Part shown: one piece after another, positions 19,560 to 59,027 of the stretch
Position numbering within the stretch: the first letter of the stretch is position 1
Layout: every line of letters starts with the position of its first letter
Source: Terebella lapidaria
Lineage: Eukaryota > Annelida > Polychaeta > Terebellida > Terebellidae
Direction of reading: 5' to 3'
Assembly: GCA_949152475.1 (NCBI GenBank)
Contig: OX424560.1
Location: forward strand, 17,981,106 to 18,045,105
DNA: 64,000 nucleotides
Made by a program: the position numbers and the translations under genes
Notes under the pieces: model-generated
The model's input: the letters and a program-made list of their open reading frames with translations, nothing else
What the model was told of the DNA's origin: nothing
Databases searched by the model: none

Positions 19560-20770
19560 AAAACAGGACCAAACAAATATCACGAAGGAAATATCATTGC
19601 GCCCACTTGCGACGAACTCTTGGTGTCCTGTTGCAACTACATGTGCCAAATCACGGAACCGCTCTCGAGGCAGACTCTGCTTGGAACGAGACGTCAGCGT
19701 GTAAACATACTTTCAAAAGGTTTGTTTATTGTCTCGACTAAATACCAGTTTGAGGTCACTTAACCGAGATCAAATGTAAGTGAGTCACATTTCTCAACAT
19801 TGTTTTTTTTTCCATTTCATTTTTATACTGATATTTAGGAGGGACATTTGGCATATAGATGTACGAGTAAATGAGAAATTAATACATTAATATGATCAAG
19901 AACAGACCCACTTGCAGTCACATTAGCAGAAGCCCATACAATTTTCAGAGGTCACTTCACTCAACCTGATTGATTTTGCTGACGTCACACCGCTGCCCTC
20001 ATTCCGATACAAATCAAATCTAATTACAACTGCCCCTCACACGAATTAGGCTTCCTGGCCAAATGTGTTTTATAATCAATGTTTACGATCATTGAGGCAG
20101 TAGCATCCAACTCAACTTGCAATGTGACCGTTGGTAAAAGGTTTAAGTTAAGACTTTCCCCCGAACGGCAACATCATTCCGATATTCCCATATACTTATG
20201 GTTAGGAAATTGGAATGGGATGGATTGTAAAAAAATATGTTTTTAAATGTTGTTTCAAATGTTATGTGCCTATTGAATTCATCAGCAATGGCCTGTGCAT
20301 GTGTGATCACCAAAATGATGTTGTAGACTATCACATAATGTCCATGTCAATGGTTAGCCATGACCAAGTCCGTACATTAGTATCACAGAACACAGAACCA
20401 AGACAGGATGCCCATCCATCAAACCACATTACCGAATACTGCTGAATGAGCGAGCACACTATGACCCCAGCGTCAGAAGACAGGTGCTCGGACATTGGCT
20501 CGGTCACAGTGTGGGTCACAGGCGGTCGTTAGCTTTCACCCCTGTCAGGCTGACTTGCTCCAGCCGTGAGGCTGACAATTACTCATTTTCAAGACTGGGT
20601 GGAATAGTTTTCTGTCCTCCCGTAGAGGAGATCATCTATAAGTGGTATCTTCCGCACAAACCATCCTACAATTAACCCTCCAGTATGATGAATAAAATGT
20701 GGTCGCTATTTCTCCAAATACGACCCATGCTATGCTTTTCACAGAACACTCACCGACCCGGCCTTCCATA
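19560..20770 (+). repeat. Right arm in unit A (R3, R4, R1 in series)
   Basis: R3 at about 19,600-19,800, R4 at about 19,970-20,110 and R1 at about 20,360-20,690, all plus orientation. The same series is at 24,300-25,450 in unit B and 29,470-30,640 in unit C. Confidence 0.6.
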
Positions 20771-21062
20771 CCTGAAAATGTGCGTAAAACATGCAAACCA
20801 TAGTATTGACTGTCTATTACATCTGACAACACCGTTCACTTCTGTTTAGGCGGATCCAGGAAGAGAAGGGCACCAGAGTGAGTTTGTGTGGAATTTATAC
20901 CTTTGAGCGGACCCAGACCCCCGCCGGCAATGGGCTTGAAAATGATTTGATGATGAGAGTAGAAATCACCATGATAGAGTTTGTAACTATTACAAATTAT
21001 GGGTACATATCATATATGAACATTATTCAAGGAGAAACATACATCGTTTACGCATGTTATTC

Positions 21063-24000
21063 TCTTAATGTGATGTACTGTCGTGATCACAGAAAGGAAT
21101 GCATAGAATAATAATGATCGAATTGCCATCTAACCGCAACCGATTGCTCCCAGTGCAGCTGTACCTCGAATAAACCACATTACAAGTGCAGAAAGTAGTT
21201 CCACTCACGTCATCGTCATAAACATCATGGTGGGAAATCAAGCAGGAAAGTTTCAAGAACAGTGATACGATGTTCTGATCTATCTGAAAATGTAGAATTT
21301 CTATTGGACGATATTCAATCAGGTATACATGACACATATTTTGGATTGTACTGACAAAACCAACTCATCATTGTGATATATATAATCAGGTTCACGAAAA
21401 ACTAATATCGTCATTACAAGGGTAAAACCGTTGGTCAGGTATGCAAAACGGTAATACTTTCCACCAGTATACGTGAGAAAATCAACACCATTATGCAATG
21501 ACACAGTATTACAATATGTTGTTCAATATTCCGTCTGGCCCCAGCGGAGTGATACGAGCGTGTGCTTATGCATGGGAATGAGGTGTAATCCGGTCCATGA
21601 TGTAGTTCGTTGACCGAAGCAATTGAATTTGCATGGGCAGGGGTGGTGCTGTGGGGGCGAATAACTAGGATTAACATCGAAATCCCCCTTGAGTAACTGT
21701 GGTACTTAACGGTCTGATCTATGAACGTGACATTAAAAATACAAAGTGATATTGGAAGTAAGGAGGAGTTGGTACGAATGAAGTGAAAACGATTGCTTCC
21801 TGCTGTGGTTCCATGCAGTGATCTACCATGTATGTCAATGGGGAACCTACTGATGGCAGCCATGTACTTTTGGGGCTCTGAAACAGTCTATTATGCCAAA
21901 AAGTACAAAAAACGTCATGTCCATTGTCTGCATTGTGCACAAACAAACATGACAAAATTTTGATGCAACATTATTACGTTTTTGTATTATATGGCACAAT
22001 AGACTGTTTCTATGGTTTATCCATACCCGAATTACATGGTGGCGATCCTGGTGGCAAACAGGAACCTCATTGTGTAACAAGGATTGAAGTCCACGTGTCC
22101 TTGATAAGAATGCAAAATGTCAACTTTAATGTTGACATCTGAACAGATTTGAGGAGACCAGATGGAACTGAGAGGTATAAGTCAATCAAGTTCGATGACA
22201 CCCATTATTTTCATATGGATAAAGTATGCGCATTTGGATTGAACATTCGTTATAATGATACAAAATACATACATCTATAATATTGTTAAACGCTTCCATA
22301 AGTAGATGATACGATACATTACCTCTGAGGAAGTCTTTGGGATGTAAACGAAAGATATACATTCAATGTGGTATGTCCCATTGAGCCAACCGTTTCCCCC
22401 AAAAATTGCCTGATGATGAATAACCCGGTCGAATTTGGCCCGTTTTGTCAGCCAGACACCAAATTTTGCAATTGCTCTCAGAAAGTGATGCGCGCGATTT
22501 TTTCCGTTCAAATAAAAACGAATGATGCGCAGCGTCTAAAGTGACGCGCCCGCCCAGGCAGAGCCATATACCAAATATACGAACAAATGTTTTCTGTGTA
22601 ACGGAAATGAACGGTTGAGCCACGCCAGGTTTACATACACGTGACCAGACATACAGGCTTTACTCAAGCTAGTGTGCTAGCATATGTTCACTAACACCGA
22701 GGCCAGAGTGTGTTGGATCATCCCAGAGAGAACGTCAGTATGTGGAAATGTTATGTGACAGATGGGAGTCCTGTCTCGGCTTTTTGGTCTCTAATTCTGA
22801 GGGCTTGAACTATTTTGATTGCTGTAATATATGTGATAGAGTTCAAAGATGGAATACACCAAATTAATACATAAAGCATTCGCCTTTCAAACTACCTTCC
22901 CAACACAATCATAATGTATTAAAAAACAAAAGAACAATTTTTCCTACACCGACACGAGGTAACATTCACGATTTGTGATGTGATTTGGTTCCACATAAGG
23001 AATCCAATAAAACAATATTCGGTCTAGATTCAGAGCAAAGCCCTCGAACGTCTGTTTACACACTGGAGGCTCGTCCTGACGACAACACGCTGTTTCAAGA
23101 GTGGGGTGCCAGTAGTGCCAACAGGTCTCCAAGAGGGTTGGATTTTGTTTCCTAGTCGCCTCAGTATTTCAATATTCCTTCGATCACAATATGTTTCAAT
23201 GAGAGTACCCATTGGCGTTGTTTTTGCATGTCGCTATTGCTTCCTGTTTTGATCGAGGGCTACCAAGTTTGATGAGTACGTTGTGGTATGTAATGACCTT
23301 TGATCATCTCCTTGGTACTACATCCTTTCAATTCATCAGATTACCGGGTATCAATACTGGAAATATTTGAATATTGTTTCGTTTTGAAAGCTGATGCTGA
23401 ACGTAAAAAGATTCGTGATGACTCGTAGCACTTTGGGATAATTTCAGAGTGTCTCATGCAAATATATAGTCTAGACAGATTATTTGATTGCGGTTTGATG
23501 TACGATTGATACCAAACACTTCGAGTAAAAATAATGCGTTCTGATAGTGACCTGAGGGCGATGCACGGTACAGTATAATCACTCTAGTAGTTTGGATCAG
23601 ATGACATGAATCAAGTAATCAGACTCAATTTTGCATAGTGTTCGTTATCAGTTATACAAGCACAAAAAGTGATTGTTATTCCCTATCAGAAATGAAGTGC
23701 TGATTGCCTTTATCACCGAGAAGCGGATTGCATTTCATTGTCTCAAAACATTACCCATTCATCCCATACAATCACAATCACTTGGTACGCTTAAAGGAGA
23801 GTTCACTACGACATCCGTGTGACTGATAACGAAAAACTTGACATTTGCCTAAACAGATTGTTCCTTGACTTCATATAATTTTGACTTCCAAATATCACCT
23901 AACAGTACTTCATCAATGTCCGCTCGTCAAAATTCATTTTTTTCGTTTCATATCACAATTTATATCATTTTCCTACACGTATCTCAGCTTAAAACATCAC

Positions 24001-25803
24001 TCGTTCTTTCATCCAGTGATTCATCACCTTTCATATTACCCAGTATTCAACTACCTTAATAATATTGCGGAGCAACGGTTACGTCAGGTACATACATATT
24101 TCAATCCACTATGACCAATTATTTCAACATAACATTTTCCCTCTGTTTTGCTCCATAAAATTTGGAATACAGGCGAAGGTCTATTTATTGGACCAGCGGC
24201 CTACAGTGGCCGGCATAAGCTTACGCATAATAATACACACATGCCTGAGATCTAAAACAAACCACACTTCTGACGACACCATGGTAACAAAACAGGACCA
24301 GACAAAAATCACGAAGGAAACATCATTGCACCCACTTGCGACGAACTCTTGGTGTCCTGTTGCAACTACATGCGCCAAATCACGGTAGCCGCTCTAGAGG
24401 CATACTCGGTTTGGAACGAGACGTCAGTGTGTAAACATACTTTCGAAAGCTCCATTCATTGTCTCGACTAAATACCAGTTTGAGTTCACTGAACCGAGAT
24501 CAAATTCAAGTGAGACACATTTCTCAATTTGTTTTTGTTTTTCATTTCATTTATTATGCTGATATTTAGGAGGGACATTTGGCATATAGATATACGAGTT
24601 AATGAGAAATTAATACATTGATACGATCAAGAACAGACCCACTTGCAGTCAATTGAGCAGAAGCCCATATAATTTTCAGAGGTCAGTTCACTCAACCTGT
24701 TTGATTTTGCTGACGTCACACCGCTGCCCTTATTCCGAGACAAATCAAATCTAATCACAACTGCCCCTCACACGGATCAGGCTTCCTGGCCAAATGTGTT
24801 TTATAATCAATGTTTACGATCATTGAGGCAGTAGCATCTATCGCAATTTGCAATATGACCTTTGGTAAAAGGTTTAAGATTAGACTTTCCCCCAAACGGC
24901 AACATCATTCCGATGTTCGCCCGTCGCATCCGTGATGGACTCATGTTTAGAAAAAGCGAAATGGGATGTAATATGCTTTTAAATGTTGTTTCGAATGTTC
25001 TGTGCCTATAGAATTCATCAGCATTGACCTGTGCATGTGGGATCACCGAAATGATGCTGTAGACTATCATATAATGTCCATGTCAATGGTTAGCCACGAC
25101 CAAGTCCGTACATTAATATCACAGAACACATATCCAAGACAGGATGCCGATCCGTCAAATCACATTTATGAACACTGTTGGATGATCGAGCACACTATGA
25201 CCGCAGTGTCAGAAGACAGGTGCATGGACATTGGCTTGGTCACAGTGTGGGTCACAGGCGGTCGTTAGCTTTCACCCCTGTCAGGTTGACTTGCTCCAGC
25301 CGTAAGGCTGACAATTTCTCATTTTCAAGACTGGGTGGAATAGTTTTCTGTCCTCCCGTAGAGGAGAGCATCTATAAGTGGTATCTTCCACACAAACCAT
25401 CCTACAATTAACCTTCCAGTATGATGAATAAAATGTGGTCGCTATTTCTCCAAATACGGTCTCGTACTATGTTTTCAACAGAACACTCATCTACCCCGCC
25501 TTTCCATACTTGACAATGTGCGTGTGAAACACGCAAACCATATTTTTGACTGTCTATTACATCTGACAACACGGTTGACTTCTCTTTAGGCGGATCCAGG
25601 TAGAAGAGAGCATCAGAGTGGGTTTGTATGGAATTTATACCTTTGAGGGGACCCAGACCCCCGCCGGCAATGGGCTTGAAAATGGTTTCATAATGATAGT
25701 AAATAACTATAGACTATGGCTTTTCAACTATTACAAATTATGTGTACATATCATATATGAACATTATTCAAGGAAAAACGTACATTGTTTACGCATTTTA
25801 TTT
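21063..25803 (+). repeat. Tandem unit B (4.74 kb)
   Basis: Second copy of the unit. Compared with A it lacks the AT/GC palindrome and has an internal deletion that joins the CAATGTG block (about 22,360) directly to the interior of the Harbinger-like element. It also has about 240 bp of private sequence around 21,850-22,080, with a near-palindrome: GGCAYAATAGACTGTTTC-type blocks at about 21,880 and 22,005 in opposite orientation. Confidence 0.85.
22362..22572. mobile_element. Truncated copy of the Harbinger-like MITE in unit B
   Basis: Matches the right half of the unit A element: GGTCGAATTTGGCC, CAGCCAGACACCAAATTTT, GATGCGCGCGATTTTTTCC and AAAGTGACGCGCCCGCC. The left end is missing because of the deletion in unit B. 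Confidence 0.75.
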
Positions 25804-25924
25804 CCTTAATGTGATGTACTATCGTGATCACAGAAAGGATGATTGATGATTGAATTGCCATCTAACCACAACCGAATGCTATAAGTGAAGCTGTACCTCG
25901 AATAATATATAAATACAACCCTGT

Positions 25925-26797: not shown

Positions 26798-27313
26798 TAC
26801 GGAGCCCCCAAGGTGACATACCAAAAATATTTATTAATCCGTGCGCATGGTTTAACAATTCGTGAGCACGAATTACTAATCCGTGCGCACAGTTTAACAA
26901 TTCGTGCGCACGAATTACTAATTCGTGTGCACGAAATACTAATTCGTGCGCACGAATTGTTAAATCGTGCGCACAGATTACCTTAACTAATCCGTGGGCA
27001 TGATTAAACAATTCGTGGGCACGATTTAACAATTTGTGGCCACGATTTAACAATTCGTGGGAACAATTTAACAATTCGTGTGCACGAATTAGTATATGCA
27101 TGGTGGCCTTGGATTGGTATAACTAATCCGTGGGCACGAATTAATATTAATATTTCGTGCCCACAAATTAGTATTTTTGTGCCCACGGATTGTTAATTCG
27201 TGACCACGAATTGTTAAATTGTGCGCACAGATTGGTAAACCATGCACACGATTTGATAAACCGTGCGCACGGATTAAGAAATATTTTCGGTATGTCACTT
27301 CAGGGGCTCCGTA
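26798..27313. mobile_element. 516-bp TIR element made of a 21-bp palindromic minisatellite
   Basis: Inverted termini start TACGGAGCCCC and share GTGACATACC-type and AATATTTWTTAATCCGTGC-type blocks. GCATTT flanks both sides (26,792-26,797 and 27,314-27,319), and units A and B show the uninterrupted site. The interior is about 20 imperfect copies of a self-complementary unit of roughly 21 bp, with core TCGTGCGCACGA separated by three-base linkers. Because 21 is a multiple of three, both strands stay open and would spell a heptad-like IRAHELL repeat. I regard that as a by-product, not a protein. Confidence 0.85.
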
Positions 27314-30300
27314 GCATTTGGATTGAACATTCGTTATAATAATACAAAATATATACATCTATCATTTTTATACACTTCCATATTAACTTGACGATACATT
27401 ACCTCTGAGGAAGTCTTTTGGATGTAAACGAGAGATACACATACAATGTGAGCCCCAATCCTGTGCAGACAACAGCAATATAGTACCATATCCACCAGAT
27501 ATGCACCATATTGTATTCCCTGATCAGCACACTGTGAAATATGACCAAACAAATCATACATTCATGTTTCGCGGTGTAGCACATGAGGTCAAACGATATG
27601 ATAAAGTAGGCTAAATAGTCATATGACTCCATGTTCATTGAGAGTTATACTCGATCTAGTGAAATGGTGATAACTCGTTATGACGAACAGAATCAAGCTG
27701 ATACATTCTTTGGCTAACGACTAAATGTACGAACAAAATGCTTTCTATGTAACGGGAATGAATGGTTGAGCCACGCCAGGTTTACATACACGTGACCCGA
27801 GCTAGTGTGCTAGCATATGTTCACTAACTCCGAGGCCAGAGTGTGTTGGATCATCCCAGAGAGAACGTCAGTATGTGCAAATGTTATGTGACAGATGGGA
27901 GTCCTGTCTCGGCTTTTTGGTCTCTAATTCTGAGGGCTTGAACTATTTTGATTGCTGGAATATATGTGATAGAGTTCAAAGATGGAATACACCAAATTAA
28001 TACATAAAGCATTCGCCTTTCAAACTACCTTCCCAACACAATCATAATGTATTAAAAAACAAAAGAACAATTTTTCCTACACCGACACGAGGTAACATTC
28101 ACGATTTGTGATGTGATTTGGTTCCACATAAGGAATCCAATAAAACAATATTCGGTCTAGATTCAGAGCAAAGCCCTCGAACGTCTGTTTACACACTGGA
28201 GGCTCGTCCTGACGACAACATGCTGTTTCAAAAGTGCGGTGCCAGTAGTGCCAACATGTCTCCAAGAGGGTTGGATTTTGTTCCCTAGTAGCATCAGTAT
28301 TTTAATTTTCCTTCCATCACAATATGTTTCAATGAGAGTACCCGTTGGGGTTATTTTTGCATGTCGCTATTGCTCCCTGTTTTGATCGAGGGCTACCAAG
28401 TTTGATGAGTACGTTGTGGTATGTAATGACCTTTGATCATCTCCTTGGTACTACATCTTTTCAATTCATCAGATTACCGGGTATCAATATTGGAAATATT
28501 TGAATATTGTTTCGTTTTGAAAGCTGATGCTGAACGTAAGAAGATTCGTGATAACGCGTAGTAGTTTGGGATAATTTCAGAGTGTCTCATGCAAATATAT
28601 AGTCTGGACAGATGATTTGATTGCGGTTTGACGTACGATTGATACCAAACACTCCGAGTAAAAATAATGGTGCCAATACGCTCTGATAGTGTCCTGAGGG
28701 CGAAGCACGGTACAGTGTAATCACTCTAGTAGTTTGGATCAGGTGTCATGAATCAAGTAATTAGACTCAATTCTGCATAGTGTTCGTTATCAATTATATA
28801 AGCACAAAAAGTGGTTGTTATTCCCTGTCAGAAATGAAGTGATGGTTGCCATCATCACCGAGGAGATGATTGCATTTTATTGTATCAAACCATTATTTAC
28901 CCATTCATCCCATACAATCACATCTGGTCCGATTAAAGGGGTTGTTCACTACGACCACGTTACTGACAACATTTACTGACAACTGACAACAAACTTGAAC
29001 ATTTGGCTTGAATAGATTATCCCTTGACTTCATATAATTTTAACTTACTTATATCACCTTCTAACAGTACTTCATCAATGTCCGTTCATTCGTGTGTTTC
29101 ATTTTACCCTTTATACCATTGTCCTACACGTTTCTCAGCCTCATTTAGCCTAAACTATGCACAAATGTGGTTTAAAACATCACTCGTTCATTCATCCAGT
29201 CATTCATTTACTTTTCGTATAAGCCAGTATTCAACCACTTTAATATTTATATAAAACAAACATTCCGTTCAGGTACATACATAGTTCAATCCACTATAAC
29301 CAATTATTTTAACATAACATTTTCACTCTGTTTTACTCCATGAAACTAGGAATACAGGCGAACGTTTATTTATTGGACCGGTGGCCTACAATGGCCGACA
29401 TTAGCTTGCGCATAATACACACATGAGTGCTGAGATCTAAAATAAATCACACTTCTGACGATACCATGGTAACAAAACAGGACCAAACAAATATCACGAA
29501 GGAAACACCATTGTGCCACTTGCGACGATCTCTTGGTGTCCTGTTGCAACTACATGTGCGAAATCACGGTAGCCGCTCTCGCGACAGACTCTGTCGGAAC
29601 GAGACGTCAGTGTGTAAACATACTTTCGAAAGCTGCGTTCATTGTCTCGACTAAATACCAGTTTGAGTTCACTTAACCGATATCAAATGTAAGTGAGGCA
29701 CAATTCTCAAAATTGTTCTTTTTTTTCATTTCATTTCATTTATTATGCTGATATTTAGACGGGACATTTGGCATATAGATATACGAGTAAATGAGAAATT
29801 AATACATTAATATGACCAAGAACAGACCCACTTGCGGTCACATCAGCAGAAGCCCATACAATTTTCAGAGGTCAGTTCACTCAACCTGCTTGGTTTTGCT
29901 GATGTCACACCGCTGCCCTCATTTCGAGACAAATCAAATCTAATCACAACTGCCCCTCACACGGATCAGGCTTCCTGGCCAAATGTGTTTTATAATCTAT
30001 GTTTACGATCATTGAGGCAGTAGCATCTATCGCAATTTGCAATGTGACCTTTGGTAAAAGGTTTAAGATAAGACTTTCCCGCAAACGGCAACATCATTTC
30101 GATATTCGCCCGTCGCATCCGTGATGGTCTTATGGTTAGAAAATTGGAATGGGATGGATTGTAAAAATATGTTTTTAAATGTTGTTTCAAATGTTCTGTG
30201 CCTATTGAATTCATCAGTATTGACCTGTGCAAGTGGGATCACCAAAATGATGTTGTAGACTATCATTTAATGTCCATGGCAATGGTTAGCCACGACCAAG

Positions 30301-30950
30301 TCCGTACATTAATATCACAGAATACATATCCAAGACAGGATGCCCATCCGTCAAACCACATTAACGAACACTGCTGGATGATCGAGCACACTATGAACCG
30401 AGCGTCAGAAGACAGGTGCCCGGACATTGGCTTGGTCACAGTGTGGGTCACAGGCGGTCGTTAGCTTTCACCCCTGTCAGGCTGACTTGCTCCAGCCTTG
30501 AGACTGACAATTACTCACCTTCAAGACCCGTAGAGGAGAACATCTCTAAATGGTCTCCTCCGCTTGACAAACAACCCTACAATTAACCCTCCAGTATGAT
30601 GAATAAAATGCGGTCGCTATTTCTCCAAATACGGTCTCGTGCCATGCATGCTTTCCACAGAACTCTCACCGACCCTGGCCTTCCATACTTGAAAATATGC
30701 GTATGAAACGTGCAAACGGTTCATTGACTGTCTATTACATCTGACAACACGGTTCACTTCTGTTTAGGCGGATCCAGGTAGAGGAGGGCACCAGAGTGAG
30801 TTTCTGTGGAATTTATACCTTTGAGCGGACCCAGACCCCCGCCGGCAATGGGCTTGAAAAGTTTTTCAACTATTACAAATTATGGGTACATATTATATAT
30901 GAACATTACTGTATTCATTGGGGAGACATTCATAATATTGTTCACGCGTG

Positions 30951-39500: not shown

Positions 39501-41892
39501 TCATAAAGCTTTTCTGGTTTATGTGTTTGGGTTTGGCTCTGACTAAAATTGAATGGTCTGGTTGGGTATGCGAGTGATTACGTTCAGTGTATGAAGGACA
39601 CTTTCGGTATTGAATCTGGTAGTTTGTTTGTGAACAAACGCTTTTGTGCGTACAAAGTGCATGTGCATAGTGCATCATATTTTCATACGATTTGAGAAAT
39701 TATCAGTCTGTACTAGAGTCTTAGCCACTAGGTTGCTCCACTTGCGTGAAGAAAAGATGGAAATGGTAATACATGTAGCCATAAAGAAAACCACTCTAAG
39801 ATGTACATGACTGACAGCTCAATTGAGTTCTTCATTATATATATCCACGTATTGTGCTGGGTTTCAGATGAATGATAAACGTTCAGAAAAACAGGCTCAA
39901 TAGTCCATGTTTCAATTCCCAGTGGAGAGACATCAAGGAATGATATGTAAAATTTCATTGATTGAACGCTGCGAAAATGATACACATAAATATATTGTCA
40001 TAAATAAACATTTCAAATTGACTACAATGAAGCCATTTGTATTCACTTTATATTCGGTGTCTTGACGTGGAGGATTCGAAATAAATACCTCGCTGTTGTT
40101 CTCGTAAATCAACTAATAAAATAGAGTAGTCTCAGTGGAGACGTCTTGTTTTACAAATGACCATTCCATATTGATTTGCAGTTATTGGCTTGCTGAAGTA
40201 AAACTTTAAATATACAGGGCTATTTCATGAAGACACAGTATGTGAGATTTAAGTATTATCTTATCATCACCAAGACAACTAGATTTCAATTATGCCAATA
40301 TCAAACGTAATCTACAACATTTTGGAATAGAAACACAGCCCGACCAAATAGTTTCTCCAAAGAAATTTATCGGTGTGTGAAATGTAGTATTTGTGGTTTC
40401 GTGGTTGTAGTAGTGTGAAAATTATATCAGCATAAGAAATAATATACATTAAATTTATATCATTGTCCACACATCGAGCCAGACTTTCGTTACAATGATT
40501 GCTTGGATTCAACTGATAGTCATGCACGGCGTATGATACACGTACTTTGAATCAGAAAAAGCCATTTCATCGCAAAATACCATTTCAATAGTAATGTGTG
40601 TTCATTGTATTCGGATTTTGTGTTCCTTATTTTGCGTGCATTATTGGTAGAAAACAATACAGATATCATTATCTCTGGTTCGGACAAAGGCGGCCACGAG
40701 CCAACGCAATTAATCCCAATTTGCAGCCCGGGGGATTTGTATAGGGATCCACGATCACTGTTCATTAATAACCATTTATCATTCATTATGTGGTGAACCA
40801 GGCGTGTATTCGTGATAATGTCTCTTTGTTGAGATTTCAGTTCTTCAAACAATGCATTGCAAACGTGATGATCGGCTTGTTTCCTCTCATTCATATGCGA
40901 ATGCATGGTTAAGTTTCATTGTACCGTTCTTCCAATAGTAGATGACATGAACATAAATGGAATAGAAATAATAAGATGCATGTACGATTAACAACCATAT
41001 TTACTTTGTTGTGTATGTATCATACTATCATACGGCTATTCCACATGTGAATTTTTGTGGCCGTGGCCCCAGTTCTGATTTGAATACTCGAAAAAGCCGT
41101 TGTGATAAAAGTAAATATTGTGGTATAACCCGTTTATAATAATCATTTTTACTAGAAAGTTTGAACGTTGTGTGCAATGGTTGGTAAATCAAAAGGTAGT
41201 TCCGGCATTATGGCGGTTAACGGACAAAATTGTGAAATTTGCGGATCGGTTGCGTGCCGTATAATATATTTATGCAATGATGCTTATGCGTTATTAAGTA
41301 ATCGATATTAACTTGACGAAACTTGCTTTTATAATTTACTAATAATAATTCCAATGCCAGTACTATTAAATATATTTGAAAAAAAATATGTACATCAATT
41401 ATGAAGCCCTTTCCAGACAACGCAGATAATATTCATCCATGATCGCGATTGGCTGAACATATTCATATTTATATAAAATAATTCATTTCAAATGAAAAAA
41501 ATTAAAACATTCATAGATGTTTTTCAATTTCGCCAACAAACGTTGGCCTGGGCAGAGTATATGCGCTGTTAAGTTCATAACGTTCAAGCAACGAGACAGT
41601 TCGAAGATCATAACGCCTTTGGAATCAAGACTGCGTTCAATCTTACAGATGATGATGTTTGTTGCGATTTTCCTTTGAAAAGTTGCAGTTGTCCTGGTAG
41701 ATTCACTGTGTTTTTTTTTTCTTATGGATATGAGGGAATTCGTGTGGAATCGGTTGATTTTTCATTCGACACATTGTACTGGGGCCAATTTTACATACGA
41801 ATAGCCACTAGCAGGATGTATTCATTTCGCAAATCTCCCGGGCTTTCCTATGCATTCATGATTACATGTATATATCGATCGGTGTGATTCTT
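39501..41892. other. No supported gene; small reversed R2 fragment
   Basis: A reversed R2 fragment lies at 40,316-40,358 (TAGAAACACAGCCCGACCAA). The 128-codon minus-strand stretch at 40,520-40,906 shows no recognisable domain. Nothing else stands out. Confidence 0.4.
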
Positions 41893-41904
41893 ATGAAGCT
41901 ACAT

Positions 41905-42000
41905 TAGGGACATTCGCCTTCGTGTATTTTCGCCTTCGCCTTCGTGGTGTTCTCGCCCTCGCCTTCGCGTAATTTCGCCTTCGCCTTCTCGTAATTTCGC
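41905..42000. repeat. CGCCTT-type tandem array, left end
   Basis: Short CGCCTTCG units with TCTCGTAATTT spacers; inverted relative to 43,383-43,738. Confidence 0.8.
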
Positions 42001-42002
42001 CT

Positions 42003-42215
42003 TCTCATACGTATGAGATACAAAACATGAGGAACGCCTTCTTATACGTATGTGATACAAAGTCATACGTATGAAATAATAGGCCATGCGTATGAGATAC
42101 GCTAAAGCCATACGTATGGAAAAATAAATCATACGTATGAAATAATAGGTCATACGTAGGATATAGTATATCTCATACGTATGAGATAATATGTCATACG
42201 TATGAGATACCGACC
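42003..42215. repeat. CATACGTATG palindrome cluster, left
   Basis: About nine near-copies of the self-complementary decamer CATACGTATG, spaced 15-35 bp, often followed by AGATA. A few carry single changes. Confidence 0.85.
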
Positions 42216-43382: not shown

Positions 43383-43738
43383 TGAAGGCGAAGGTGAAAT
43401 TATGAGAAGGCGAAGGCGAAAGTGGGCGAAGGGGAGGACGAATGCGAGAATGAAAACACCACAAAGACGAAGGCGAAGATGCGAAGACGAAGGTACGCGA
43501 AGACGAAGGCGAAATTACAAGAAGGCGAAAGTGGACGAAGGCGATGACGAAGGCAATATCACGAAAAGGCGAGGGCGAAATTACGCGAAGTCGAAGTCGA
43601 AAACACCACGAAGACGAAGGCGAAAATACGCGAAGACGAAGGCGAAATTACGAGAAGTCGGAGACGAAAGTGGGCGAAGGCTAGGGCGAAGGCGAAATTA
43701 CGCAAAGGCGAGGGCGAAAACACACGAAGGCGAATGTC
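43383..43738. repeat. GAAGGC-type tandem array, right end
   Basis: Dozens of degenerate GAAGGCGA/GAAGACGA units with AATTACG spacers. The 6-bp-based period leaves an Arg/Lys/Glu-rich frame open at 43,402-43,743, which I reject as a gene. Confidence 0.85.
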
Positions 43739-43998
43739 CCTAATGTAGCTTCATAGATTCTTGGAGCATTGGTGTGCATAATAGTTTGTCATTATGTGAT
43801 ACATCATTATATATAGATTTGAAGATGTAATAACCGAAGCTAATACTGTATTAGATTATTTCCCATGAGATAGGAGTTACATGCATCCATATCATGACAG
43901 TTATGTGTTCGTTCACGGTAAACAAAATTGTAGCGAATTTGTCTATACAGTCTGTGGTTCACACCTTTCATGGATGCCCCTGTGGCGCACGGTTTTCA

Positions 43999-44177
43999 TA
44001 AAGCTGGACAATCCCGATAAAACAAAGAGATTTTAGTAAAAAAAAAATCAAAGGCACAAAGTAAATGTTGTGCCACATGTGTTCCGTCGGTATTATACGC
44101 CACTAGTTTCCGAACACTGTGCCGACAACCACTCGGCCTTCATCGGACAGGTTCGGCGTTTGCTCCACAGTCTCCCA
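43999..44177 (+). repeat. Left terminal inverted repeat
   Basis: Begins TAAAGCTGGACAATCCCGAT and pairs with 49,343-49,520 through its length with few mismatches and small indels. Confidence 0.95.
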
Positions 44178-44198
44178 GCCTTTTGGAGTTTCAGACCC

Positions 44199-44206
44199 TA
44201 TAAAAA
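44199..44206 (+). promoter_or_regulatory. TATA box of the P2RX7-type domain gene
   Basis: CCTATAAAAAGGG lies about 43 bases before the predicted ATG at 44,249 and about 20 bases inside the left TIR, a fitting position for a core promoter giving a very short 5' UTR. Confidence 0.65.
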
Positions 44207-44248
44207 GGGCCCACCTGTGTGTGACGGCCCAGTTGTTACTGACTGCTC

Positions 44249-46393
44249 ATGGCAACCCAAGCTAGTACAAACGTAAGAATATGCATACGCTTTGGTTTAT
44301 AAATACGTGAAATTCATTGCAAACAGCGATTACGTACGTAGAAATTACACACAACTTCATTTACTAGATGTGGCAACAAATGAGCATGAATATATATCGC
44401 AATAACAAAGACAGTCAATTATGAAATATTCACATGTATGTACACATTGTTAGTCAATACGTGTAAAATACCCCCTAATTGTACACTTGTTTACACACGA
44501 ACACGTGGGGGAAGTACAGTACAGCTACAATATATTACAAAACATAAACGAGACTTTTCACAAATATATTGTATGGCCAAATACATCAAACAAATAACAT
44601 CTTTATTCAGACGTGTTGTCCTTGTGGACGAAAGTCCCGATGCAAGAGATGTAGATGCAGCCGTCTGGACGGGGGATGCACAAGTTGTACCTCTCCCGAT
44701 TGTCAGTACGGCCAGGTGTGCATGCGATTCAAGTGTCTTTCCAATGGGCAGCATGATGCAGCCAATATTACGATTATTGTTTTCCGTGAACTTTCGGCAA
44801 TAGATTATACATTTGAAAAGGTGTATGAAACTTTCAATGAAACAGGCCTATTTTGATACCCAGGTATTATGTTTATCAGGCTAGACCAGTGAATCCTGCC
44901 ACAGTACGCAGTGTCCGGACCCAGCCGTATGCGGCTACCAGCAGCCGTAATGTGGTCAGAGGAGACGAAGGTTCCGTGACTGATGCAGCTGCTCAACGCA
45001 TGGCACCGTTATGGGAGAATGAGCATGCACTAAAAGCAACAAATAAGGTAGTTATAATGAGGTATTTATTCATGACATGGATTTATGAAGAACTTATCCA
45101 CAATCACATTGCTGTGTGATATACAAGGAAACATGCACACAAAGGCAACAAACGCACGTTCGGAATGCATCATTATAAGATAACATTGACAAAAACTATG
45201 ACCACATGACTTACATGTATCTTCCTAAAGTAATACATGTGACATGATCAAGAAGCTGACTCGTGATTAGACTACTCATTATAATTGTACAAGACTTGCA
45301 GGTTGTGTTGCAAAATCATTTACAATGTAACTTGCACATTATTTACTGCAATAATAGTATTTGACAGGAACATAAGTGCACAGTGATCCATACAAAAAGA
45401 TGAATTGCAAATAAATTATAAAAACAACAAACATTTTTCCTCAACAAGGACAACAAGGCAGTGTACACTCTCCACATGCTAATGATAATGGTCACATGTT
45501 CAAATTCAGTGACAGTTTTTTTTCAGACATGTTACATATCAGTTCCACTGTCATCCAGGCTATTTCTTCTTGCTATTTTCATAGTTTATCATGATATTTC
45601 GGCACTTCGTACATCACACCAACCCATAATTTTTCACCAATAAACATAACCAGTAAATATGTATTCACAAGAGCATTGCATAACACCAGCTCTTACACCA
45701 TAAATAGATTCACACATAATGTTTCGTCGTCATTGAATTCTTTATGTGGCATTACCAATCATAACAACCTGTTTATATACATATCATCAATACCAACACT
45801 ATTCATTGGTTGATCTTGAAAACCTACTAATACCGCAGGATTCCTACCACCAACTATGATTTATATTTCTACAGGCAACAATACAGTCCTTGTCGGAGGA
45901 TGCAGCCAAAAACTTGCTGCATGCAATAAACCAGCACTCCCCAAGGCTGATATCTTCGCTGCTGTCCACCTGTCCCAGCCGTCCTGAATTCCCAGCGCGC
46001 GTTGTGCCTTGTCCGCAGCCCGAGTGGTGTCTTTGTGGTTGTTGCCTGCCAATGGATAACGAAAAAATGAATATATGTTGTATGCCAAACAATAAGAACA
46101 CGTGTTTGACAACCACTAAAGAATTTGTGGATTTGTGTATGCGACCCCTTGTCGTGGAAGTTGCAGGGATATTGAGTTATGCCTGCAATTTTCACGATGA
46201 CCCGTCGTTCGCCAATCGACACTATAGGAACCAGGCCTATAGATTTTTTATTTTGTGGCAGCATGGTCATTTGGGCATGGGTGAGCGGAGACGCCTCCCA
46301 TCTTGCGCTGTGTGTAAGATAAGATGGATGTATCCAGAAGCCGATGGACAATACACGGGATACATGAGCTCTTCGGATATCGAGGAGATGTAG
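44249..46393 (+). CDS. Transposon-borne Cys-rich protein with P2RX7 intracellular ('ballast') domain
   Basis: Four-exon model: 44,249-44,272, 44,611-44,715, 44,880-45,047 and 45,875-46,393, giving 271 residues. All introns are GT..AG and phase 0. The start is MATQASTN, just after a TATA box. Residues 9-43 form a dense Cys motif (CCPCGRKSRCKRCRC, then CTSCTSPDC), likely metal-binding. Residues about 134-262 match the cytoplasmic C-terminal domain of vertebrate P2RX7: PEWCLCGCCLPM (148-159), CC at 167-168, C176, RHYRNQAYRFF (214-224), LPSCAVC (240-246) and DGQYTGY (256-262). In P2RX7 these cysteines bind zinc. No channel transmembrane or ATP-binding part is present. A polyadenylation signal AATAAA lies at 46,513. 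The role in transposition is unknown; nucleic-acid or protein binding is inference. The frame is unbroken. Confidence 0.85.
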
Positions 46394-46512
46394 GTTGATA
46401 TGGCGTTGATTGATATGGCAATGTATGTTTGTATGCTTGGTGTGTATGTTGAAACGCTAGTCTTTGTATCATATATGGCAGTATATTCCGAGTGTACTTC
46501 ACTTCATTCCGA

Positions 46513-46518
46513 AATAAA
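46513..46518 (+). promoter_or_regulatory. Polyadenylation signal of the P2RX7-type gene
   Basis: AATAAA 120 bp after the stop codon, before the convergent gene's end. Confidence 0.5.
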
Positions 46519-46665
46519 GGATGTATGGATGTACCTTGAAATGTTCATTGTCAAAACAGCATGTTCGGGAAGTGTGTTGAAAGTCTATAATTTTGTTGCC
46601 CCAAGGGTATAATTGTGTTTTTGTCATTGAGAAATATAACTGGTTCTATTACAGCATACTTACAT

Positions 46666-49114
46666 TTATTCGGCACACATGTTGTACCGCGGTCTCTTCT
46701 GTTGCCTCACGACCTCAGTATCGGGTCTCTCTACGTGATTCTGCCGTAGACGGTTCAGAGTGTCTGCCATGTCGCTCTCGTGCTCGTTTCTCACTGTGTC
46801 CTGATATCGCCAGTGTAGACATTCTGCCATCAGGTCTGGTAACATGTGAAATTCATTTAAAATTTATGAAATTGGCCAGAAAATTACTGAATCGAATTGT
46901 AGGAATTACTGAATCGGAATGCGGAAGTTACTGAACATCGTCAAAACTGGTCACCAAAAGATACAATATTTACTAGAAGTGAATAACAGTGAAAAATATG
47001 GTGAAGTTCTATTACCGGTTATGTAGGAGTACTTCTTGGGAGACAGTTTCTGGTAAGCCACCCATTCCTTACTTCGTCGACTTCTCCACACACACATGGG
47101 GACGTAATCCCCTTGCACAGTGAGCAAGGGTTGCCTCTTGCAGTGATGGTTGTGGTCAATGACCGCCAGCTGGCACCTCATCCTGTAAGCATCGTACCCA
47201 AATCTCAGGCACTTTGGCACGTAGTGCAGGAGAGCGTGGCTGAAGAAGTTCTCCAGGTCCGAGGTCGTGCGTGCTTTTGTGAAGTACGTCATCATCTTCA
47301 GGCAATCAGGGGATGTCAGGACTTTCCTGAAACAGAAGAAACAGAGTCAATGATGTTTACTGATACAACGTCAGAGATTGGTAGTATTTACTAGCAATAC
47401 AATCCATTCGAAATCGGTAGTATGCATAATTACCTCAAGGCTTTGTATGCTGGTGATTGAGAGGTCAGCCATGTCTTGCTTCCTTCTGGTTGCTTTGCGG
47501 GCATTTCGTGCTGACACTTCCAGGGTGGGAAGGAGTGAACATCCCGGACGTGGTCCAACACTCCCAGGAAGATGTGTCTGAGGCGTCGGACGCTCCCTCC
47601 ACAGGACGTGCAACTGAACCAGAAGTGATTACAGATGTCCTTTACCCAATGCATCAATGCATAGCATCCTTTATTTCGGGCTTCAGCGAGTAGCTGCTGT
47701 CGTAGGTTCTTGGTTCTGTGCCACAAGTCAAGGCTGTGGTGCAGAGATGACCAGCAAGATTTCCCTGCAATAAATGTTAGTTGTATTACATTTATCTGCT
47801 CCATATCATCGAGGTTTTGTACTGGATACAAAAAGAATGAAATGTAAAGTTATTGCCTCTGTCACGGAATATATTATGATATACTCACCCATGATTTTTA
47901 TGAGTGTTTTACTGGCATCAGTAACAATTTCTTTCACATCCCTCCACTGGATGATTGCAGACAGGCAACGCTCGGCAAGCAAGGCTTCCAAACGTCCAGA
48001 CACGCCTTCCGTCTCACGATCATCGCCGATCTCCATGTGTATCACTTTGCCGCTCTCTCTGTCCATCACAGCCGCTGTTGCTTTCTTAGCACAAAAACCT
48101 GCGAAATATTTGTCAATTATGCATCAATTGTTCCGTGATGATTGCAGCATATGATCTGGCTATATCTTCATTGAATGATCACTCATGGAATGAATTATTT
48201 CACAGTCTTACCACATACTTGAATCATAACTACCTGGAGTCTCGTAACGAACGTCCACCATGCAAGTCATAGGCTTGTTGTCTAGCTGATGCTTGACTTG
48301 TTCCATGTGGTTGCCATAGTACTGATCAATGGCTCTCCCGTATATTTTCTGGGCTTTGTAGAAATTTGAGCTTTTCCCTATTTCTACTCCGATGAACCTC
48401 ATCAACAAATACACAGAGCCGTATGTAAGACCACACATCAGGGTAGCTATTTGAATGAGTAAGTGCGTGCTTGACTTACTCCCGTAGTATTCGGTTGACA
48501 ACCACTTCTGCTGGTGCTCATTCTGAAACAACAAAAAGGGAACCTGTCAGCTATTTTACACGTAATAACATAATTTATATATATAGAGCCAATCAAAAGT
48601 GTTTAGATAAATCATATTGTAAAAATTATCGCAATATAAATTGGCAAACGTACGTGACACTGGTATGTGAACTTGACGGCTGCTGGTAGGGATGTTGACT
48701 TGATGGATGCAGGGTCCGTATCGCTGGCACATCCCTCTACACCACATTTCTGGTTGACGATTAGGACTTCCAGGCGTCCGTGGCTGACAATGACTTTTTT
48801 CTCACTGATGAGACGATACTCCGTCTGCCTATGAGGGTTGCTGTTAGAAAAAAAAACAGTTCGTTTTGTCACTCCGGAAATCATAATTTACAATTTTTTG
48901 ATAAATTATTCACAATGAACAAACTACGTGTACATGGCAATAACAACAAAGGCTTTTCTACTCTGTAGTGTTTCATAAAATCTCGATATTTTCCTCAGTA
49001 CACACACATATTTTACGTAGATTAGTATACATACACATCGCTGTGATCTTCCGTTTCCACTGCATCATCTACCAACTCTTCTTCTTCTCCTATGACAGAG
49101 TCTGTGTCGTAGCC
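46666..49114 (-). CDS. DDE-type transposase, probably Kolobok-like
   Basis: Minus-strand exons: 49,114-49,035, 48,840-48,654, 48,522-48,234, 48,098-47,889, 47,764-47,434, 47,326-47,016 and 46,835-46,666. Introns are GT..AG and phases agree at every joint, giving 525 residues to a TAA. The first coding exon (start codon) lies upstream of 49,114 and I could not place it. Numbering from the first resolved codon, candidate zinc ligands are C59, C64, C88 and H92. D179 (CMVDVRYETPGF), D246 (VTDASKTLIKIM) and E391 (TSDLENFF) are the likely catalytic triad, with SLDLWHRTKNLR (266-277) and a CTSC insertion (307-310) between. An AATAAA overlaps the stop codon. The frame is unbroken, so the product may be functional. 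Family assignment is from memory of similar transposases, not from a search. Confidence 0.85.
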
Positions 49115-49342
49115 CTGTGTACAAGTGAATAACGTAGATTATCACCAAAGACTATTGCGACATGAGCCATCATACAGAATATAAACAAATACGCATACTT
49201 CCAGCGATTCACAGTGCTCATGACTTCAGATACGTGTTGCACTCAACCGTGTCAAATCACTCGCATGTCAAGCCCATGCAGTTGTACACGTATACATCAT
49301 ACCACACAACACAAACTCATAGCTGGATAGATAACTACTGTG

Positions 49343-49520
49343 TGGGAGACTGTGGAGCAAACGCCGAGCTTCTCCGATGAAGGCCGAGTGGTTGTCGGCA
49401 GTGTTCGGAAACGAGTGGCAAATAATACCGACGGAACACATGTGGCACAACATTTACTTTGTGCCTTTGATTTTTTTTTTTACCAAGATCTCTTCTTTTT
49501 ATCGGGATTGTCCAGCTTTA
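49343..49520 (-). repeat. Right terminal inverted repeat
   Basis: Inverted partner of 43,999-44,177, ending ATCGGGATTGTCCAGCTTTA next to TTAA. Confidence 0.95.
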
Positions 49521-50271
49521 TTAAGCTCCGAAACAAAACCTATCGATCTCACTTGCCATCGGGTGACTTTTCGCGACATAGTATGAAGACGAAACACATA
49601 ACCAACGTTTTGATAGTTTAAGTGTTTATTTCCTCTGTCACAACATTGCCAGTCCAAAACACAAACACGTACGCTGTATTGAAACATGAATGATCATTAG
49701 CATATCTACCACTGTTCATATGCAGATCGCAGAAATGTTCATGGAAATTGTATACAGAAGCTTACTAAGATTCATTTACGATCCAATTTCGCTGCCATAT
49801 GACCTTCGGTTATCATAATCGAAAATTAACGGGAATTTTATGATAAAATCTGAGGTGTAACAACATGTTAATACTGACGTGTAACAACATACTAATATGA
49901 ACAATCGACGTGATATAATCTAATTTATGTTAGATGAGATTTCCGTCTCATATTAAAGTGCCTAAGTGGATTTTGATAATCTGATATTTCCCGAATTTGG
50001 GCGGATTAAAAAAGCTGACGTATATACATCACTTGTATGCCTATTTGACACGCTTTATGGCTCATTTCTTCAAATGCAATTCTTGTGTTTTATGTCAAAT
50101 ACGATTGATGTAGGCCAATTGAACTTTTACAGTAGGCCCATCCCCCTAGATGGGCTTTTTTTCAGGATCATCTGTACATTTATATCATCCTCATTTGTAC
50201 TATCATCTGTCGTTCAATAGCACATTATGCTACTGTTCTTGTTTTTACTTAATTACTTCACAGCTTCACCA
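49521..50271. other. No gene or recognised element
   Basis: AT-rich sequence between the transposon and the receptor duplication. Confidence 0.5.
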
Positions 50272-52672
50272 ATGTGGACATTCTGCTCACAACATGAACA
50301 CATTTTCCAAAATATATATCCTTCTCCTATATATAATGAATATAGCTTCCTGGTTTACAAAATACGGCAAAATGATTCTACATACTATTTATATAAACAT
50401 ATAACATGCAGTTGAATTTCTCAGACGATACCAAAAACATAATTTCACTGTTGCCGTAATAACTCCATCAAATTACCATGAATGCACAAAAGTATTGACA
50501 AATACAATATTAACATGCAATTTGCGTTAAAATGAGATATATTATACGTAAAGGATTTATAATTACATACAACGATTCATGAGCAAAATGTGAACTATAC
50601 AATATTCGAACTCCTGAGTATACATTAAAATTGATGCGCTAAAATGGGTGATTACACTCCATGTGAAAACCTTCGTACAAAGATGATACGATGAATGCTG
50701 CATCATCGTTCAATTGAAAAGTAAAATGTTGGTAGTAAAAGTTAGGCAGAATCAGAATATATTTCGTCATACAGGTATACATGTGAAGTGAATAATAAAA
50801 CCATACATACTTGAAATGCTGTCTGCATAACGCTTTCAACAAATCACACATTCATCTATAATAATGACAGTAATAACTTAAAATGGAAAGTTGGCAAGTT
50901 ATAAGAGAGTCCGATATCAGATTCAACTAGAACAGATTAACTTCGCACTGTGTATAAAAGATACGATTAAAACACGTCGGTGATAGAAAAAATGAATTTT
51001 TTCATTTTAAAAAACAATCCAATATCCACACATAAAACATACACATGTACATGATTATTAAGTAGGCAGATACACAATAATACAGTGAATGATATACCGG
51101 TATAATAGTTACATGTAAAATGTAGCTTTCAATGAACGACGGCGATCGTCGTTAATACATACTAGGTTGGTATGAAAACTAAACATATTCTTCAAATTTC
51201 ATAGATTCTCCCAAATCTAAATGTCTTCATGCTGTGAAACATGTTATTTGTTTTTCACAGTTCGCGTCATTGCGTGACACACATGTACATTGCGCGACAC
51301 ACATCGCCCTACATGTGGGTGCTGGTGAGCTCAGGGGGACCGTCCGATTCGTCCACTTTGTTCTTTCGGGAGGAACAGCGTTTCTCAGGAAGCAATGCTT
51401 TGAAAATCGCTTGGATTTTGTCGTTTTTGGCAAGTAAAATAATTGGTATAAAAATTTGGGGTGCAGTTAATAAAAAATGGGCCAAGACGCGTAGAACACC
51501 TTCCCTGCATGTTTTACAAAATGGAAACGAAGCATTGATTCCAATCGACAAAAGCCAGCAAGCGCTGTACAATGTCAGAACAATTTTCATCCTTTTAAGT
51601 TTCCTGACTAAAGTACTCCTCACAAGCCTAGAACTGGTGTCCTTTTCGGCAATCCTTATTGACAAGAAGTGGAAAGTTATCATAACTATTGCTGTGCCGA
51701 GGTAGAAGACGAGTAGAAAATACTGGAGCCACTTCGGTGGATAACATGCGTTCACAGGGTCTACGCCCAACTCTGACACACCAAGTAATATCGCACTTGA
51801 AATGATCCAGAAGACGTTCCCGGAGACTGAAGAGATCACAACTGTCCTAATCGATAAAGTAGGTCCAAGTGTCATCTGTCTGAGTGACAGGTACAGATCC
51901 AAGTTGAGCAGAGCCAGATGAAATCCGTATGTTCCCAAAGATGCTCGAATTATCCACGACCGAATCAGACAAAGTGTCCAGTTCTGCAGTGAAAATAACT
52001 GCTCGAATCCGAGAACTGTTGTAGCTGCGCCATAGATACATCCTGCAAAACATTTTTGAATCATAAAATTGTACGTGGATTTCTTTCTCGTCTTTGTCAG
52101 GCAAAAGCCGGCTATTGCCAACACGTGGATTGTAATCAGTAGGAAACCAATTATGCAGTTGGATATTCCTAAAGTAAGTAAGAGATCCATTATATCTCCC
52201 GCCAGTTTATACGTTCAACTGGTGTCTGCGCGGGCTCGAACCTTCCTATAACTGTTGACATCCTGCCTATAGCGGCACAACGCCACTCTTCACAGTGCGT
52301 AGGGAAGGTGTGTGTGTTTGTGGGAGGGGTTGGAGGTGACGATTGATGCTAGAGGTGATATGTGTCTGAATGGAACCCAAATCTCAGTGACATAATCAAT
52401 ATTGTCGCGAGCAGGGGATGGTATCCATGGAAATGCAAACTATGTATTTCACAACCTCCGCTGACACGAAGGCTGACGGTACATGCATCGACGTCATCGC
52501 AGATATTGTTGAATATCAACTTGGTCAGTAACTATAATTGGCTATGATATGCAAAGGCATGGTCATTGCACTGGGTCATTAAACTGGGTGTATCCCAAGA
52601 TGGTCATGGGTAAGAATGGTTTACATTGCTATTAGCGATTACATTTGAGGTTTTGGTTATGAGGTTTATGAG
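50272..52672 (-). repeat. Segmental duplication, copy 1
   Basis: Aligns with 56,690-59,027 from TGTGGACATTCTG through the receptor gene to a GGTTTTGGTTATGAGG block upstream of it. Copy 1 has about 490 bp (50,393-50,880) missing from copy 2. Copy 2 instead carries a MITE. Confidence 0.9.
51309..52190 (-). CDS. Rhodopsin-like 7TM receptor, orphan, paralogue 1
   Basis: Intronless, 293 residues. Seven hydrophobic segments fit helices at about 8-30, 41-62, 74-98, 115-137, 154-177, 201-221 and 233-254. C74 (start of helix 3) and C149 (loop 2) can form the usual disulfide. The E/DRY region is LDLYLSL (97-103), so the Arg is replaced by Leu. Helix 6 has CWLLSIG in place of CWxP, and helix 7 has APQIFIPII in place of NPxxY. 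A short amphipathic stretch (IQAIFKALL) and a charged tail ending TSTHM follow. The N-terminus is only about 7 residues. The ATG context is good (A at -3, G at +4). A surface chemoreceptor-like role is inference; the ligand is unknown. Confidence 0.88.
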   Translation of the reverse strand: MDLLLTLGISNCIIGFLLITIHVLAIAGFCLTKTRKKSTYNFMIQKCFAGCIYGAATTVLGFEQLFSLQNWTLCLIRSWIIRASLGTYGFHLALLNLDLYLSLRQMTLGPTLSIRTVVISSVSGNVFWIISSAILLGVSELGVDPVNACYPPKWLQYFLLVFYLGTAIVMITFHFLSIRIAEKDTSSRLVRSTLVRKLKRMKIVLTLYSACWLLSIGINASFPFCKTCREGVLRVLAHFLLTAPQIFIPIILLAKNDKIQAIFKALLPEKRCSSRKNKVDESDGPPELTSTHM

Positions 52673-57175: not shown

Positions 57176-57612
57176 TTAAATATAGCTTCCTGATTTACAA
57201 AAATAACTAAAATGGCAAGTTATAAGAGAGTCCGATCATATCAGATTCAACTAGAACAGAAGAACTTCATAAAAAAATGATTTACATATTTTTTCCTTTA
57301 ATAAAAAAACCCAATATCCATTCATAAAACATACACATGTACATGATTATTAAGTAGGCAAGTATACAATAATACAGTTAATGAAATACATGTACCGGTA
57401 GAGCTACATGTTCCAATGAACGACGGCGATCTTCGTTATTACATACTAGGTTGATATCAAAACTAAATACATTCTTCAAAGTTCATAGGTTCTCCCAATC
57501 GTAGTGCCCTTTATGCTGTGAAACATGTTATTGGTTTTTCACAGTTTGTATCATTGCGCGACACACATGTGATTAACAATTTGCCACTTTCTGAAAGTTT
57601 ATCTGTATCGCC

Positions 57613-58494
57613 CTACATGTGGGTGCTGGTGAGCTCATTTACACCATCCGATTCGTCCACTTTGTTCTTTCGGGATGAACAGCGTTTCTCAGGAAGCAAT
57701 CCTTTGAAAATCGCTTGTATTCTGTCGTTTTTGGCAAGAAAAATAATTGGTATAAAAATTTGGGGTGCAGTTAATAAAAAATGGGCCAAGACGCGTAGAA
57801 CTCCTTCCCTGCATGCTTTACAAAATGGAAACGAAGCATTGATTCCAATCGACAAAAGCCAGCAAGCGCTGTACAATGTCAGAACAATTTTCATCCTTTT
57901 AAGTTTCCTGACTAAAGTACTCCTCACAAGCCTAGAACTGGTGTCCTTTTCGGCGATCCTTATTGACAAGAAGTGAAAAGTCATCATAACTATTGCTGTG
58001 CCGAGGTAGAAGACCAGCAGAATGTACTGGAGCCACTTCGGTGGATAACATGCGTTCACAGGGTCTACGTCCAATTCTGACACACCAAGTAAAATCGCAC
58101 TTGAAAGGATCCAGAAGGCGTTCCCTGTGACTGAAGAGATCACAACTGTCCTGATCGATAAAGTAGGTCCAAGTGTCATCTGTCTGAGTGACAGGTACAG
58201 ATCCAAGTTGAGCAGAGCTAGGTGAAATCCGTAAGTTCCCAAAGATGCTCGAATTATCCACGACCGAATCAGACAAAGTGTCCAGTTCTGCAGTGAAAAT
58301 AACTGCTCCAATCCGAGAACTGTTGTCGCTGCGCCATAGACACATCCTGCAAAACATTTTTGAATCATAAAATAGTACGTGGATTTCTTCCTCGTCTTTG
58401 TCAGGCAAAAGCCGGCTATTGCCAACACGTGGATTGTAATCAGTAGGAAACCAATTATGCAGTTGGATATTCCTAAAGTAAGTAAGAGATCCAT
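57613..58494 (-). CDS. Rhodopsin-like 7TM receptor, orphan, paralogue 2
   Basis: Intronless, 293 residues, differing from paralogue 1 at 15 positions (about 95% identity): N41Y, I52V, F62L, S123T, V126A, I130L, G142D, F158I, I171M, T227A, L252F, K258R, A265G, P285V and P286N. Most are conservative and lie in or near membrane helices. The paired cysteines C74 and C149, the LDLYLSL motif, CWLLSIG and APQIFIPII are unchanged. The gene is full length with the same good ATG context, so both copies appear under constraint or the duplication is very young. Ligand unknown; which of the pair is the older copy cannot be told from the sequence. Confidence 0.88.
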   Translation of the reverse strand: MDLLLTLGISNCIIGFLLITIHVLAIAGFCLTKTRKKSTYYFMIQKCFAGCVYGAATTVLGLEQLFSLQNWTLCLIRSWIIRASLGTYGFHLALLNLDLYLSLRQMTLGPTLSIRTVVISSVTGNAFWILSSAILLGVSELDVDPVNACYPPKWLQYILLVFYLGTAIVMMTFHFLSIRIAEKDTSSRLVRSTLVRKLKRMKIVLTLYSACWLLSIGINASFPFCKACREGVLRVLAHFLLTAPQIFIPIIFLAKNDRIQAIFKGLLPEKRCSSRKNKVDESDGVNELTSTHM

Positions 58495-59027
58495 TATATC
58501 TCCCGCCAGTTTATACGTTCAACTGGTGTCTGCGCGGGCTCGAACCTTCCTATAACTGTTGACATCCTGCCTATAGCGTCACAACGCCACTCTTCACAGT
58601 GCGTAGGGAAGGTGTGTGTGTTTGTGGGAGGGGTTGGAGGTGACTATTGATGCTAGAGGTGATATATGTCTGAATGGAACCCAAATCTCAGTGACATAAT
58701 CAATATTGTCGCGAGCAGGTGATGGTATCCATGGAAATGCAAACTATGTATTTCACAACCTCCGCTGACACGACGGCTGGTGATATACGCGTCGACGTCA
58801 TCGCAGATATTGTTAAAAACAAATAACGGTTGTTAATTCGTTGGAACAGGGCTTTGGTGGGATATGGGCCGACTTGTGACTGAGTAACAACTTGGTCAGT
58901 GACTATAAATGGCTATAATATGCAAAGGCTTGGTCATCGCACTGGGTATATACCAAGATGATCACGGGTTAGAATGGTTCACATTGCTATCAGCGATTAG
59001 ATGAGGTTTTGGTTATGAGGTTTTGGT

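Follow-up and report, generated by a model that had tools for sequence, protein, structure and literature searches.

The analyzed window is a stretch of 64,000 nucleotides (64 kb) of contig OX424560.1 of the annelid Terebella lapidaria. The element described here spans positions 43999–49520 of the window (5,522 bp), where two convergent, spliced, and apparently intact genes lie between a pair of terminal inverted repeats (TIRs) of about 180 bp. The minus-strand gene is predicted to encode a DDE-type transposase, and the plus-strand gene encodes a 271-residue KolX-like protein whose last exon carries the cytoplasmic ballast domain of the P2X7 receptor (P2RX7_C). The element is probably a Kolobok-superfamily DNA transposon that appears to be autonomous and most likely belongs to the Kol0 type, with KolX as a resident accessory gene. 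Both this type of element and the transposon origin of the P2X7 ballast were already published in 2022, and the locus is a further, well-preserved example. The features of the element are as follows.

43995–43998, no strand: left flank TTCA, putative target-site duplication (three of four bases the same as on the right side)
43999–44177, plus strand: left TIR, with this end if a TTAA-type duplication applies (outermost matched base 43995)
44199–44206, plus strand: putative TATA-box-like sequence TATAAAAA, just internal to the left TIR and about 50 bp 5' of the start codon
44249–44272, plus strand: KolX-like exon 1, MATQASTN (gene model)
44611–44715, plus strand: KolX-like exon 2, cysteine-rich, with nine Cys at residues 10–39 (gene model)
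44880–45047, plus strand: KolX-like exon 3, linker (gene model)
45875–46393, plus strand: KolX-like exon 4 and stop, P2RX7_C or cytoplasmic ballast domain (gene model, Pfam, phmmer, and alignment)
46666–46835, minus strand: transposase exon 8 with the stop (gene model)
47016–47326, minus strand: transposase exon 7 with the putative catalytic Glu, E394, in DLENFF (gene model and motif)
47434–47764, minus strand: transposase exon 6 with DLWH (D/CxxH) and the CxxC...H2CH zinc motif (gene model and motif)
47889–48098, minus strand: transposase exon 5 with the second putative catalytic Asp, D249, in VTDAS (gene model and motif)
48234–48522, minus strand: transposase exon 4 with the first putative catalytic Asp, D182, in VDVRY (gene model and motif)
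48654–48840, minus strand: transposase exon 3 (gene model)
49035–49114, minus strand: transposase exon 2 (gene model)
49213–49221, minus strand: transposase exon 1, three residues from the ATG, selected to suit the phase and less certain than any other exon (gene model)
49343–49520, minus strand: right TIR (outermost matched base 49524)
49521–49524, no strand: right flank TTAA, putative target-site duplication (from the sequence)

The TIRs at 43995–44177 and 49343–49524 are inverted relative to each other and align over 184 columns with 92.4% identity (E = 3e-70); the paired arms measure 82 nt (96%), 58 nt (95%), and 53 nt (91%). The local alignment score was 295, against a maximum of 26 for 500 shuffles of the left arm. 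Chance was ruled out as the source of the repeats by this score and the E value. The limits 43999–49520 are those that a TTAA-like duplication would set, with TTCA on the left and TTAA on the right.

The KolX-like gene begins 72 bp beyond the inner edge of the left TIR, and its four exons are joined through three GT–AG introns in phase 0 into the 271-residue product. The transposase model joins eight exons through seven GT–AG introns of consistent phase into 528 residues; its exon borders were picked to keep the frame open, and the model is a sequence-based prediction. In each joined frame, the only stop is the terminal one, against averages of 13.5 (minimum 3) and 25.9 (minimum 15) stops in 200 shuffles of the KolX-like and transposase coding sequences, respectively. 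These counts rule out that the open frames of the two genes arose by chance. The ten introns of the two genes have a GC content of 27–38%, lower than that of the coding sequences at about 50%. Opposite the ballast exon, an open frame of 195 codons was observed on the minus strand (45869–46456), and residues 158–224 of the KolX-like protein match the translated opposite strand at 46288–46118 (31%, E = 5e-6). This match is probably an artefact of codon complementarity.

The profile search of the 271-residue product returned Pfam PF20478 (P2RX7_C) with an E value of 1.6e-22 (80.8 bits versus a cut-off of 23.5), and this was the sole Pfam family at E values up to 1. No P2X channel domain was found by Pfam in the same range. 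The KolX-like protein is not a channel, and the possibility that the element is part of a P2X gene was ruled out by the lack of a channel domain in the product. When the last exon was compared with solved chains using phmmer, four distinct P2X7 sequences were matched (best E = 2.2e-12), and a search with the ballast profile returned P2X7 chains, every other match having an E value of at least 1.2. Exon 4 is 30–32% identical to two of these four sequences and keeps the W-C-x-C-G-x-C start, the CC pair, C-[LI]-T-T, and P-S-C motifs of P2X7. The initial annotation had described a DDE-type transposon with a P2RX7-type domain in its second gene and matched TIRs of about 179 bp around both genes, together with the exon frames, splice phases, and a product of 271 residues; the TIRs, gene models (which give the same product length), motifs, and Pfam result bear out this description.

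The zinc of the P2X7 ballast is held by seven cysteines, according to the parts of PMC9587614 cited here. Six of the seven conserved ballast cysteines are in register in exon 4 (Cys52, Cys54, Cys57, Cys69, Cys77, and Cys144), and the seventh, Cys68, adjoins its partner, standing beside Cys69 as in the CC pair of P2X7; the automatic alignment shifts this pair by one residue, and the choice of the seven zinc-holding cysteines is our own reading of the exon 4 alignment. The five GDP (guanosine diphosphate) contacts of rat P2X7, with the residue numbering taken from the parts of PMC7016195 cited here, are kept at two positions (R546 and R578), and H547, R574, and K583 are replaced by N, V, and E. 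The same source describes R546 and R578 as the only ones conserved in invertebrate domains. The residues at these positions suggest that the KolX-like protein probably lacks GDP binding of the rat P2X7 kind. An AlphaFold2 model of the ballast exon alone had a mean predicted local distance difference test score (pLDDT) of 43 and was not used.

The cysteine-rich exon 2 has nine cysteines within 30 residues, and we take it, by eye only, to resemble a CXC-type zinc module. It had no Pfam family, and the single match among solved chains (E = 5.1) is at chance level. A search of NCBIfam with four exons gave one match (E = 0.016, far under the family cut-off), and a search of PHROGs with three exons gave matches with E values of 0.29 and 0.11 only. 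Relatives of the ballast exon were sought in two scans each of viral contigs (0 and 14 pattern matches) and prokaryote contigs (11 and 88), and none was confirmed. Likewise, none of the 19 and 2 pattern matches to transposase exons 6 and 7 in viral contigs was confirmed.

By motif inspection, the transposase contains a putative DDE triad (D182, D249, and E394). DLWH at 271–274 represents the C/DxxH motif, CxxC is located at 310, and an H2CH zinc motif (H330, H335, C342, and H344) lies between DLWH and E394. Among shuffled sequences, 2 of 500 reached the D-D-DxWHxxK spacing and 35 of 2000 contained the H2CH form; these controls are lenient because the patterns were written with the protein already seen. 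As stated in the parts of PMC9587614 cited here, which refers to Kapitonov and Jurka (2007) for the Kolobok superfamily, C/DxxH is common to Kolobok and four other superfamilies (hAT, P, MuDR, and Dada), and in almost all Kolobok transposases a zinc finger separates C/DxxH from the last Glu. According to the cited parts of PMC6004289, the motifs usually present in Kolobok are DDE, THAP, and H2CH, with THAP not being universal. The second zinc finger (CCHC) that KolobokP, KolobokE, KolobokD, and Kolobok5 have after the first Asp was sought with one CCHC pattern, which had no match in the 528-residue model.

The proposed assignment to the Kolobok superfamily rests on these motifs and on the KolX-type partner, because there is no Pfam or PDB match. 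Several observations weigh against it. The transposase matched no Pfam transposase family (the best hit was DUF6866_C, below threshold with E = 0.02 and 15.1 bits versus 27) and no solved structure (best E = 1.1). No THAP domain was found by Pfam at a maximum E of 10, a search in which the HMMER filters drop most matches above about 0.1. Kolobok elements generate a 4-bp TTAA target-site duplication and have 5'-RR..YY-3' termini. The putative duplication here is imperfect, TTCA and TTAA agreeing at three of four bases in one copy only. With TTAA-type flanks, the termini are TA..TA and not RR..YY; AA..TT termini arise only when the ends are moved inward by 1–2 nt, and the flanks are then no longer TTAA. 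Finally, when the element was compared with the whole window by blastn (E up to 0.01), it matched only itself and the inverted TIR pair, with no second copy or fragment.

Some of these points would fit a TIR transposon of another superfamily that acquired a ballast gene independently. If the ends are placed two bases inward (AAGC..GCTT), the flanks give a perfect 2-bp TA duplication; the TTAA duplication is imperfect, and the transposase has no detected THAP domain or family match. Since DxxH and the H2CH zinc motif between the second Asp and the Glu fit Kolobok, and the ballast cysteines are retained, we regard this explanation as very unlikely. That two unrelated host genes happen to sit between inverted repeats is so improbable as to be nearly negligible: there is no second copy at hand to show mobility, but a gene with transposase signatures and its published partner type lie compactly within matched TIRs.

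The pairing itself is known from the work of Kojima and Bao (2022; PMC9587614, the parts cited here). Kolobok elements of the Kol0 lineage encode a transposase and KolX, which is like the P2X7 ballast and resembles residues 476–595 of human P2X7. The pairing is described as a feature of Kol0, whose hosts include vertebrates, annelids, cnidarians, and sponges. The authors concluded that P2X7 originated when a P2X4-like gene fused with KolX and named Nanor as another likely domesticated KolX. PMC9587614 was the only paper with Kolobok and KolX together in the literature searched, and no other paper with the same claim was recognized by title or abstract start among the matches listed. The suggestion in the initial annotation that a transposon could have supplied the P2X7-specific exon agrees with the conclusion of these authors, and the capture route to P2X7 is therefore not new. 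Its view that the domain resides in a mobile element also holds, but "cargo" is probably the wrong word, since KolX is a standing accessory gene in the published Kol0 elements.

The main rival explanation is that a DNA transposon caught a host gene of the nanor/ZCD type by chance and that the gene has no role in transposition. It draws on the single copy seen and on the report of Rump et al. (2020; PMC7016195, the parts cited here) that the P2X7-type domain occurs across animals in short proteins, some with conserved linkage; the stem "transpos" occurs 0 times in the main text of that paper, which does not draw a link to transposons. Chance capture is nevertheless unlikely, given that pairing of the transposase with KolX is described as characteristic of the Kol0 group in the animals named above (PMC9587614, the parts cited here), and that the KolX-like gene begins just inside the left TIR, is convergent with the transposase gene, and keeps its four-exon frame open.

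Here, we propose how a Kol0-type element with these two proteins may work. The transposase would bind the TIRs and move the element by cut-and-paste into TTAA-like sites. The KolX-like protein would be a resident accessory factor, not caught host cargo, and may bind zinc via the ballast cysteines. At the element ends, its cysteine-rich N terminus may bind either DNA or the transposase and contribute to assembling or targeting the complex. A more specific version, in which the KolX-like protein of a Kol0-type element joins a CXC-like DNA-binding N terminus to the ballast, is possible but doubtful. If it were true, KolX would be a DNA-binding cofactor of transposition, and the P2X7 ballast would have begun in a transposition machine.

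Elsewhere in the window, two closely similar hydrophobic open reading frames (ORFs) of 301 residues are located on the minus strand at 51312–52214 and 57616–58518, within direct repeats that are 90% identical (50892–52513 and 57213–58817). The ORF at 57616–58518 had a sub-threshold match to 7tm_1 (E = 0.0052, 16.7 bits versus 30.5), and the ORF at 51312–52214 had none at E up to 0.01; the two may represent a tandem pair of rhodopsin-like receptors. Direct repeats of about 3 kb occur at 18047–21173, 22805–25905, and 27938–30908; the three are 86–88% identical and contain no ORF of at least 150 residues. A large palindrome at 8753–9902 (1.15 kb), which matches its own reverse complement at 79%, is possibly a foldback element. 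At 26829–27313, units of 21 bp form a tandem array whose palindromic core resembles TCGTGCGCACGA, and the region matches its own reverse complement at 76%. To the left of the transposon, a degenerate GCGAAG-rich tandem array with units of about 22 bp (43481–43734) is related, in inverted orientation, to 41892–42004. Rfam and ARAGORN gave no match in the window.

Among known systems (compared through the cited parts of PMC9587614 and PMC7016195), KolobokP resembles the element in carrying the transposase and accessory protein on opposite strands. The long terminal direct repeats of KolobokP (about 450 or 660 bp) were not found by blastn of the element against the window (E up to 0.01), and a ballast protein takes the place of the His-Me nuclease. 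KolobokP identity was ruled out because there are no direct repeats and neither product matched a nuclease family. Nanor and other ZCD proteins share the C-terminal ZCD/ballast and the short chain without a channel; they were described without a link to transposons in the cited parts of PMC7016195, whereas the gene here sits inside a TIR element. The resemblance to Kol0 with KolX lies in the two-protein organization, a DDE transposase with a ballast protein, and in the zinc finger between C/DxxH and the last Glu. The differences from Kol0/Kolobok are the imperfect TTAA duplication, the TA..TA termini that result when these flanks are taken as the duplication, and the undetected THAP domain. 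The N terminus of the KolX-like protein is cysteine-rich. The locus adds one more example in line with the transposon origin published for the domain that separates P2X7 from the other P2X receptors, and an intact copy would help in studying the role of the ballast domain before its fusion to a channel. Compared with the C-terminal ballast of vertebrate P2X7 (PDB ID: 6u9v and 9e3m), the KolX-like product has no P2X channel domain found and differs at the positions of H547, R574, and K583, and the likeness consists of the domain family, the zinc cysteines, R546, and R578.

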